Of a stretch of 64,000 nt of DNA, positions 4,711 to 6,500 are shown one piece after another; the first letter of the stretch is position 1; every line of letters begins with the position of its first letter. Origin of the DNA: Candidatus Zixiibacteriota bacterium (GTDB lineage Bacteria > Zixibacteria > MSB-5A5 > GN15 > JAAZOE01); NCBI GenBank assembly GCA_030668485.1, contig DAOUTW010000016.1:1-64000 (forward strand), read 5' to 3'. Below the pieces are notes generated by a model. That model worked only from the letters and a program-made list of their open reading frames with translations. It was not told the DNA's origin and made no database searches. Made by a program: the position numbers and the translations under genes.

Positions 4711-4855
4711 TGAGAAATCATGAGGTCATCTAAGCGACAGCCAAAAAGCGGCCCCTGCCATCGAGTTCTGCGCTGCCTCTTGACAATGGGAATTTGAGTT
4801 TATTGCCTGAGAAATGAGGTCATCTAAGCGACAGCCAAAAAATGGCCCCTGCCAT
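4711..4855. repeat. Pair of direct repeats of a dispersed intergenic element
   Basis: Two 41-base copies, 4721-4761 and 4815-4855, differ at only two positions; both are preceded by TGAGAAA. The core AGCGACAGCC followed by an A run and GGCCCCTGCC recurs in related form at 22778-22805 and 25251-25284. They lie between the kinase start and the terminator of the small membrane gene. They look like copies of a short, non-coding, genome-dispersed element. Confidence 0.7.
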
Positions 4856-4958: not shown

Positions 4959-5297
4959 CTATCCTTTGGAGAAAGCGACACTCCTCAGTACAAGCCCCAG
5001 GGTAAAAACGGCTACTGTCGCCGGCAGCATATAAACAAAAGTGTAAGGCAGGAAGAAAGTCATCACGAAGGCCGACAGCAACGATGGCAACACTACAAAA
5101 AACACCAGTTGAAATGAAAACTTGACCAGCTTGTAAACCAGAAGCAGGACGATGGCTGCTGCCAGCATATAGGCGGCATAAAGCCCGGTTTGGCCGAAGT
5201 GGTTTAAAATGTATTGCCTGATCGGGTCCAGGTTCTGGGCCTGGGCGGCCACCGTCTGGGCAATCTCTCCGGTTGGAATTTGGGCCAATAAACTCAT
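4959..5297 (-). CDS. Small hypothetical membrane protein
   Basis: 112 residues. After a hydrophilic N-terminus with the segment LDPIRQYILNHFG there are two or three membrane helices (about 38-60 and 62-105). AGGTGA lies 5 bases before the ATG. It follows the 70-residue hypothetical gene after 46 bases and ends before a strong terminator, so the two are probably co-transcribed. I do not recognise a family. Confidence 0.65.
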   Translation of the reverse strand: MSLLAQIPTGEIAQTVAAQAQNLDPIRQYILNHFGQTGLYAAYMLAAAIVLLLVYKLVKFSFQLVFFVVLPSLLSAFVMTFFLPYTFVYMLPATVAVFTLGLVLRSVAFSKG

Positions 5298-5343: not shown

Positions 5344-5556
5344 TCAATCCACCGGCTCGATAGTCAAGCTTGATTCACCGACATGAGTCAGACCAACCAT
5401 TCTGGTCGTCAAGAAGTTTTTAGACGTAATCCATTTCTGAGACAGCTCCATCACCTGTTCCTGGTCGACTTCTTCTTCCCAGTCAAGAATGATGTTATCG
5501 AGACGCTGGCTGTTGATGACCACATCGTCCATGGTGAGAGTAAACTTGACCTTCAT
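5344..5556 (-). CDS. Small hypothetical protein
   Basis: 70 residues, acidic and without a signal peptide or membrane helix. The N-terminal part MKVKFTLTMDD suggests a beta strand, followed by a helix-rich acidic middle. AGGCGG lies 9 bases upstream of the ATG. First gene of a probable two-gene unit with the membrane protein at 4959-5297. Not recognised; the ribosome site and downstream terminator support that it is real. Confidence 0.55.
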   Translation of the reverse strand: MKVKFTLTMDDVVINSQRLDNIILDWEEEVDQEQVMELSQKWITSKNFLTTRMVGLTHVGESSLTIEPVD

Positions 5557-5788
5557 AGTTTATATCCGCCTGTCGTTTCAAAGTTTCACATTTCCTGAAA
5601 GTGGTTCTTTGCAAGGCGGATGCCAATGTCCGTGAAGATTTTTGAAATTTGTAAAGTGTTGAATTGCAACCAGATATGTATGGGGGAAAACCTATACTTG
5701 ATCGGTGAGTAATTTATGGTAATTTCGGTGGATACAAATTATGGGAGGTTTCCCATTGTCTGTTGGAGGTCTGCGAGACCGATATATT

Positions 5789-5822
5789 AAAAAAACCTTC
5801 CCCCGATCGGATCGGGAGAAGG
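5789..5822 (-). terminator. Strong Rho-independent terminator closing the gene-poor locus
   Basis: A 13-bp stem (CCTTCTCCCGATC against GATCGGGGGAAGG as read on the minus strand) is followed by seven U. No convincing protein gene lies upstream on this strand up to the promoter at 6472-6500, so it ends a non-coding or unrecognised transcript. Confidence 0.8.
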
Positions 5823-6026
5823 GTGTTAACAGGCCCTCAGCCAGGGCCAGCTCCCTTGCCCTGACGGAAAAGAAGCTTAATGATGCCCGGCTCGGAGATT
5901 AACCGAAAAATCGGCCTCCCCCTCCTACCAGGTCGTCCCCCTCTTGGAAGGCATCAATCCGGCGAGCACAGTATCTCCGGGCTGAGGGTGGTATAGCAGC
6001 CCCCCGTCTTTTCCTACATCCACGGT
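5796..6026 (-). ncRNA. Candidate structured RNA segment (second module of the locus)
   Basis: Between two terminators, 230 bases hold several possible helices on the minus strand: GGGCTG with CAGCCC, CGGAGAT with ATCTCCG, TGATGCC with GGCATCA, and GGCCCT with AGGGCC. The motif pairs CTCCGAGCCG and CGGAGATAC also occur in the upstream module at 6031-6250. It could be a read-through extension of the RNA starting near 6465 or a second RNA. No protein gene is convincing here. Confidence 0.3.
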
Positions 6027-6106
6027 AAAAAAAAAATAAGGCGCACCGGAGAATTTTTCTTCCGAATATCCTGGTATTAAAGGATACCCGGTATCTCCGG
6101 CGTGCC
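6027..6106 (-). terminator. Terminator with 13-bp stem and U10 tract
   Basis: Read on the minus strand, GGCACGCCGGAGA pairs with TCTCCGGTGCGCC (one wobble, one mismatch); a second hairpin GTATCCT/AGGATAT is nested inside. Ten consecutive U follow shortly after the stem. Confidence 0.75.
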
Positions 6107-6465
6107 TTTCCCATAAAGAACGTCCAAGGCCATCCATGGCCGATTCGTGATTACCTTGCTGAGGTTTCCGTAGCCGTTTCCATGACATAAAGCTGCCATG
6201 ACTGGGATCGGCTCGGAGAATCGGCCTTCTTCCGGTTCCGTCCGCTAAGAGGCCGGAAACAGACAGCGCCGTTCTCTCAGGATACTGTGGATCCTCTCCC
6301 TGAATTTTATCAGAGTCCATCCTGTTTCCACTTAATATTCCAAACGGTAAAAAGGACCATATACAATCAATGCCCAAGTTGCATATGGTGGGGAATTGCG
6401 ATTGAAACCGAATCACTGGTGGGGGAGAAGAGACCGAGTGAGGTGATCATCTCCTGAAGCGATTC
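6027..6465 (-). ncRNA. Candidate ~440-nt structured non-coding RNA
   Basis: A near-consensus promoter at 6472-6500 and a long hairpin with a ten-U tract at 6027-6106 delimit a transcript of about 440 bases. Inside are long complementary arms, for example GGCCGATTC with GAATCGGCC, and GGAAACAG with CTGTTTCC. The only long frame (a GTG start at 6416, 163 codons) lacks a ribosome site and runs through the terminator hairpin. I looked for the hallmarks of tmRNA, RNase P RNA, SRP RNA and common riboswitches and did not find them. It may be a new RNA class or an uncommon known one. Confidence 0.45.
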
Positions 6466-6471
6466 AACAAA

Positions 6472-6500
6472 AATATAAGCTTTGTCCCATTATTTGTCAA
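6472..6500 (-). promoter_or_regulatory. Near-consensus sigma70-type promoter for the RNA-like locus
   Basis: TTGACA (6495-6500) and TATATT (6472-6477) are separated by exactly 17 bases on the minus strand; the start of transcription would be near 6465. It is one of the best promoters in the window, yet no clear protein gene follows. Confidence 0.8.

Follow-up and report, generated by a model that had tools for sequence, protein, structure and literature searches.

Is the segment at positions 6027-6500 of a Candidatus Zixiibacteriota contig (DAOUTW010000016.1) a gene for an unknown structured RNA and, if so, what kind of RNA does it encode? The window analysed here is the whole stretch of 64,000 nucleotides from which this segment comes. 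The first-pass annotation had described a TTGACA-17-TATATT promoter followed 440 bases later by a 13-bp hairpin and ten U, with long complementary arms in between, no frame with a ribosome site and no match to tmRNA, RNase P, SRP, 6S or the common riboswitches, and it had proposed a candidate new structured RNA. Its observation is confirmed by our analyses, with corrections to the 3' end. Its interpretation, an unannotated structured RNA gene, is supported, as it is what the evidence favours. It did not include the longer 3' end, or the RNA with a start-stop mini-ORF that occupies the same genomic slot across the order. In what follows, G000 is the genome of the window, G001 to G006 are the other genomes of its family, and G002 and G004 belong to two other genera of that family. 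All features of interest are on the minus strand.

6472-6500, minus strand: sigma70-type promoter TTGACA-17-TATATT (TTGACA at 6500-6495, TATATT at 6477-6472), conserved in G004 (TTGACA-17-TATAAT) and G002 (TTGACA-17-TATCTT)
5789-6466, minus strand: probable full RNA of about 675 nt, its 5' end inferred from the -10 box and its 3' end from the compact terminator; a shorter form ending near 6027 (about 440 nt) is also possible
6410-6465, minus strand: P1 hairpin, with outer helix GAAUCGCU/AGUGAUUC, inner helix GGAGA/UCUCC and apical part GAUC-ACCUCACUC-GGUC
6438-6443, minus strand: CCUCAC motif in the apical loop of P1, invariant in the three family members
6356-6389, minus strand: P2 hairpin, in which ACCAUAUGCAA (6389-6379) pairs with UUGUAUAUGGU (6366-6356), preceded by CCCC; the same helix is found in G004, with about 50 nt more in its loop
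6358-6360, minus strand: AUG in the 3' strand of P2, at the place and in the sequence context of the order-wide mini-ORF start, but without a Shine-Dalgarno (SD) and with 16 codons to the stop; probable eroded site
6027-6108, minus strand: 15-nt inverted repeat with a 41-nt structured loop, followed by ten U; the terminator of the first-pass annotation, possibly internal or partial
5789-5822, minus strand: compact intrinsic terminator CCUUCUCCCGAUCCGAUCGGGGGAAGG-UUUUUUU
5610-5625, minus strand: sigma54-type promoter TGGCAT-N5-TTGCA of ORF70, separate from the RNA, also present in G004, G002 and G001
5344-5556, minus strand: ORF70, a 70-aa conserved protein of unknown function encoded downstream of the RNA
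4959-5297, minus strand: ORF112, a 112-aa hydrophobic protein encoded next to ORF70 (56 of 60 relatives)

The promoter matches the consensus at 11 of 12 positions and is the best in a 4-kb scan, although sites with 9 of 12 matches occur there at the chance rate (5 found, 5.5 expected). The hairpin preceding the ten U is present, but its arms (6108-6094 and 6052-6038, 15 nt at 87% complementarity) enclose a 41-nt loop that itself folds and are followed by UUA and ten U (6036-6027). It is therefore not a compact terminator. A compact terminator (12 bp, 3-nt loop, seven U) lies at 5822-5796, 234 nt before ORF70. This is about where the homologous slot has its terminator in relatives (215-222 nt in the two measured), so the main 3' end is more likely near 5789 than at 6027; both ends of the RNA were deduced from sequence and not mapped. 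The RNA 6471-6021 folds at -160 kcal/mol, compared with -132.9 +/- 6.4 for shuffled sequences (z -4.22, 0 of 100 as good), and the longer form extending to 5785 gives z -3.7. The corresponding RNAs of G004 and G002 have z values of -4.7 and -2.5. Between the compact terminator and the sigma54-type promoter, at 5741-5756, lies a conserved short hairpin (ATGGGAAACCTCCCAT; TATCCC..TATGGGA in other families), which might be an activator site or the start of a second RNA. A direct repeat, GAGGTCATCTAAGCGACAGCCAAAAA, is found downstream of ORF112 in two copies 94 bp apart (4722-4747 and 4816-4841).

The comparison with Rfam suggested by the first-pass annotation gave no hit at gathering threshold for the whole window. 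At E values up to 10, only matches that we attribute to chance were obtained, including the Magnesium-II riboswitch (RF01056, 18.4 of 40 bits, E 0.7) and the PyrR element (RF00515, 20.3 of 54 bits, E 4.6); below-threshold hits to SAM-III, HOTTIP_3 and MIR8007 were likewise rejected. ARAGORN detected no tRNA or tmRNA in the window. The 163-codon GTG frame (6416-5925), whose match to a conserved protein had been named in advance as a refuting result, has no Pfam match, is not preceded by a ribosome site and has no counterpart in the homologues (tblastn E >= 0.09), although a frame of that length arises in only about 1% of dinucleotide shuffles.

We next searched for homologues. Blastn searches of the same genome, of 60 relatives and of phages and plasmids found none; a 30-nt hit in genome G029 was not followed. 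Synteny was more informative. ORF70, ORF112 and a PDZ protein are encoded next to each other in all seven genomes of the family. In G004 (locus L024) and G002 (locus L009), the gap holds the same kind of RNA in the same slot and on the same strand, with the promoter followed by a hairpin whose helices differ in sequence but keep pairing around a constant apical CRCCUCAC. In the three-row P1 alignment 92% of cells are paired and 11 of 17 pairs are changed on both sides. None of 500 shuffles reached these values, and sliding the partner strand reduced pairing to 32-45%. The alignment was trimmed by hand to the helix, which leans it towards the structure, but RNAfold predicts this hairpin in each sequence on its own. 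The other outcome named beforehand as a refutation, substitutions following codon rather than base-pair constraint, did not occur. G000 and G004 also share P2 (CCCCACCAUAURCAA...UUGUAUAUGGU). Downstream of P2, local alignments of the three RNA bodies do not score above shuffles. G001, G003, G005 and G006 have a gap of about 600 nt without the RNA. Beyond the PDZ gene of G002, a REP-type palindrome array is found with a REP-associated transposase-like frame (locus L026, about 1-970).

Covariance model R1 retrieved only its two seed genomes among 241 relatives, and model R2 retrieved only its seed genomes G000, G002 and G004 among 40 relatives at E<1e-5. Hits in other genomes to a pattern combining the promoter and CRCCTCAC proved on folding to be devoid of P1, and the P2 pattern was not found in viral contigs. 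However, weak R2 hits (E about 1) fell in the same slot at loci L099 and L097, from two genomes of one genus in f3, one of the other three families of the order (f2 to f4). Reading the slot in other families revealed a common layout upstream of the small sigma54-type operon. We therefore collected the slot from 40 more genomes of the order, and then from 60 more of the order and class.

In families f2 to f4, 55 genomes have a strong SD and ATG in the slot. In most, a TTGACA/TATATT promoter lies 145-226 nt before the ATG and an intrinsic terminator 153-308 nt after it, defining RNAs of 336-510 nt that mostly fold better than shuffles. Of the 55 ATGs, 34 meet a stop within three codons, against 18 and 6 in the other two frames and about 5 expected, while the remaining 21 mini-ORFs are longer. 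The genomes are related, so the P-value is only indicative, and as ATG was required by our search, its own conservation is not evidence; the early stop is. The consensus is GGAGGA-N3-GCCU-AUG-GAG-URA. In genome G016 the start seems to be AUA followed by UAG after GGAGG, at a contig edge (locus L103, about 1-30). CCTCAC occurs in 16 and CTCAC in 21 of 28 non-redundant 5' domains, where the best 6-mer of shuffles reached 9, and CTCAC lies mostly 98-114 nt before the ATG. A UCCGYAAWAC motif stands 12-17 nt before the terminator in about 20 RNAs. Averaged over 50 genomes, the 60 nt starting 6 nt after the A of ATG are far more stable than shuffles (z -16.8), whereas the 60 nt centred on the ATG are not structured (z +1.2), i.e. 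the ribosome site is open. Helices covary inside genera. Sequestration of the SD by segments 45 or 105 nt upstream looked attractive in the folds but is not above composition-preserving shuffles (z 0.8 and 1.4), and we make no claim of a switch.

INDEPENDENCE. ORF70 occurs in 116 of 132 class genomes, but none of 40 slots from other orders has a promoter plus SD-ATG of this type, and outside the order the mini-ORF pattern is at control level. ORF70 and ORF112, neither of which has a Pfam match, have a conserved sigma54-type promoter (TGGCAy-N5-TTGCA) in the slots of many class genomes. Genome G014, whose slot at ORF70 is empty, carries the RNA (TTGACA-17-TATTTT, GGAGGATTTGCCTATGAAATGA, terminator at +241) at another locus, beside a 248-aa ORF that looks like an isochorismatase. 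It is thus an RNA gene, not simply a leader of its neighbour. In genomes G071 and G055, the same kind of site (GGAGGNNTGCCTATGGARTGA) stands roughly 100 nt before a porin-like gene downstream of mazG, with a shared GCGTAAGC stretch upstream and no Rfam match (locus L254, near 1512, plus strand, and locus L256, near 1512, minus strand). Start-stop mini-ORFs may also sit in ordinary leaders in this order.

How does the RNA of the window compare with the order-wide RNA? It has the slot and strand, the promoter type, CCUCAC in a hairpin loop of the 5' domain and the placement of the compact terminator. In contrast, it has no SD and no early stop. The best total scores for a ribosome site are 8.2 in G000, 8.9 in G004 and 4.7 in G002, with 10.7 as the lowest value among the 55 relatives. 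The best position in G004 and the second-best in G000 are the same, GATTGTAT|ATGG in the 3' strand of P2, which reads like GGAGGATTGTATATGGAGTAA of genome G038 with the SD gone; in G000 it scores 7.7 for the start context and -1.5 for the SD, 6.2 in total. This AUG-like site lies 140 nt after the promoter in G000, just below the order-wide range, and 194 nt after it in G004, so that promoter spacing does not tell for or against membership. No very stable hairpin follows the AUG (z -0.5 in G000, -0.3 in G004), and the best match to UCCGYAAWAC, 7 of 10, is misplaced. The link to the order-wide RNA therefore rests on slot, strand, promoter, the CCUCAC loop, the weak R2 hits in two f3 genomes of one genus and terminator spacing. 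The window's RNA does fit the family-level RNA of G000, G002 and G004, with the promoter plus P1 and apical CRCCUCAC. We therefore call it a probable divergent derivative of the order-wide RNA and do not file it as a member.

Taken together, the best explanation is a non-coding RNA gene with its own sigma70 promoter and intrinsic terminator, placed upstream of but separate from a sigma54-type two-gene operon, and most likely the diverged, partly eroded version of an RNA gene that sits in this slot throughout the order. We give this reading a probability of about 0.6. The promoter, the fold, the covariation of P1, the synteny, the order-wide mini-ORF with its open ribosome site and following hairpin, and the relocation in one genome are computational results, whereas the transcript ends, the descent of the window's RNA from the order-wide one, ribosome docking and action in trans are inferences. 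Descent is somewhat more likely than not; docking and trans action are somewhat less likely than not. There are no expression data, and transcription, ribosome binding and targets were not shown. In the mechanism that we propose for the order-wide RNA, a strong SD and AUG would recruit a ribosome, and the stop after one or two codons would end translation at once. The ribosome would then sit at, but not unwind, the strong hairpin that starts about 10-18 nt after the AUG, where, by established ribosome geometry, the mRNA entry of the ribosome would lie. The stop would spare the folded RNA while the SD keeps ribosomes on it, and occupancy would gate or protect an abundant RNA whose activity reports initiation capacity. 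As no cistron follows, trans action or RNA protection is more likely than the cis effects of known minigenes, and the CCUCAC loop is a candidate seed for finding partners. In this view, the docking site has decayed in the window's family, where the RNA persists as a structure-only, probably regulatory RNA, already lost from the slot in four of seven genomes. A bolder reading, possible but less likely than not, is that an order of Zixiibacteriota uses an abundant, independently transcribed RNA that docks ribosomes on a start-stop mini-ORF at the foot of a strong hairpin, a ribosome-gated regulatory RNA of a new kind, and that the window holds a lineage in which the docking site was lost and the RNA is on its way out or repurposed.

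Among the alternatives, the most serious is that the RNA of G000, G002 and G004 is an unrelated gene that happens to occupy the slot, the order-wide RNA having been lost in this family. The missing mini-ORF, hairpin and 3' motif, the lack of alignment between the bodies and the greater length of the family RNAs are consistent with it. Nevertheless, we consider it unlikely given the shared slot, strand, promoter type and position, the CCUCAC in a hairpin loop 26-28 nt after the -10 box, and the AUG context GATTGTATATGG shared with sites of the types of genomes G038, G046 and G030. It is also doubtful that the RNA is a long attenuator or riboswitch-like 5' leader, with transcription from 6466 reading through the terminator to express ORF70 and ORF112. 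The common strand, the position directly upstream and the neighbourhood conserved across the order agree with such a role, but ORF70 has its own conserved promoter, a compact terminator intervenes, G014 has the RNA next to unrelated genes, and ORF70 exists without the RNA in the 40 genomes of other orders and in G001, G003, G005 and G006.

A protein-coding gene in the 163-codon frame is very unlikely: the frame is open, but it lacks an SD, a Pfam match and a homologous frame in G004 or G002, and the changes in P1 are compensatory. A divergent copy of a housekeeping RNA is hardly more likely. The size is in the range of tmRNA and RNase P, but these genes (RF00023 and RF00010) are found elsewhere in the genome, at C93 with 185 bits and at C96 with 278 bits, respectively, and neither model matches in the window. 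The 6S model (RF00013) finds nothing in any of the seven family genomes, which would leave room for a 6S-like RNA, yet it also misses most control genomes, and 6S is about 180 nt with a different fold; binding to RNA polymerase was not assayed.

The new elements are the RNA family and its layout, not an established function; our literature searches for non-coding RNAs in Zixibacteria returned nothing relevant, and the start-stop design does not seem to have been described. The family has no known relatives and comes from an uncultured phylum, and it gives a natural case in which a ribosome is apparently invited to start and made to stop at once on a non-coding RNA. If docking is real, it offers a handle on how cells sense initiation capacity and on how non-coding RNAs can be guarded by ribosomes. 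The three genera without the mini-ORF provide a ready-made comparison of what the RNA does without it.

Like OLE, GOLLD, ROOL, HEARO and raiA, large structured bacterial RNAs of unknown or special function, the RNA is several hundred nucleotides long, with its own promoter, a complex fold and a patchy distribution, but it matches none of 4227 Rfam models. The order-wide RNA resembles tmRNA in being structured, about 400 nt long and endowed with an internal short reading frame, but it has no tRNA-like domain, and the genome has a separate tmRNA. The translation-aborting short ORF mgtQ of Salmonella, located between mgtC and mgtB, overlaps alternative stem-loops and also acts through the ribosome (PMC8092293); it controls the downstream gene in cis, whereas no downstream cistron is present on this RNA. 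Lastly, two-codon minigenes combine a strong SD and AUG with a stop after one more codon, such that ribosome binding itself matters and not the peptide. The lambda bar minigenes are of this type, as is the minigene of the axe-txe leader (PMC8708949), and such minigenes may protect the RNA from nucleases (PMC8708949). Those described are cis elements in mRNA leaders or toxic test constructs, whereas here the mini-ORF, in the relatives and not in the window, lies in a self-terminated structured RNA conserved across an order and is followed by a strong hairpin.
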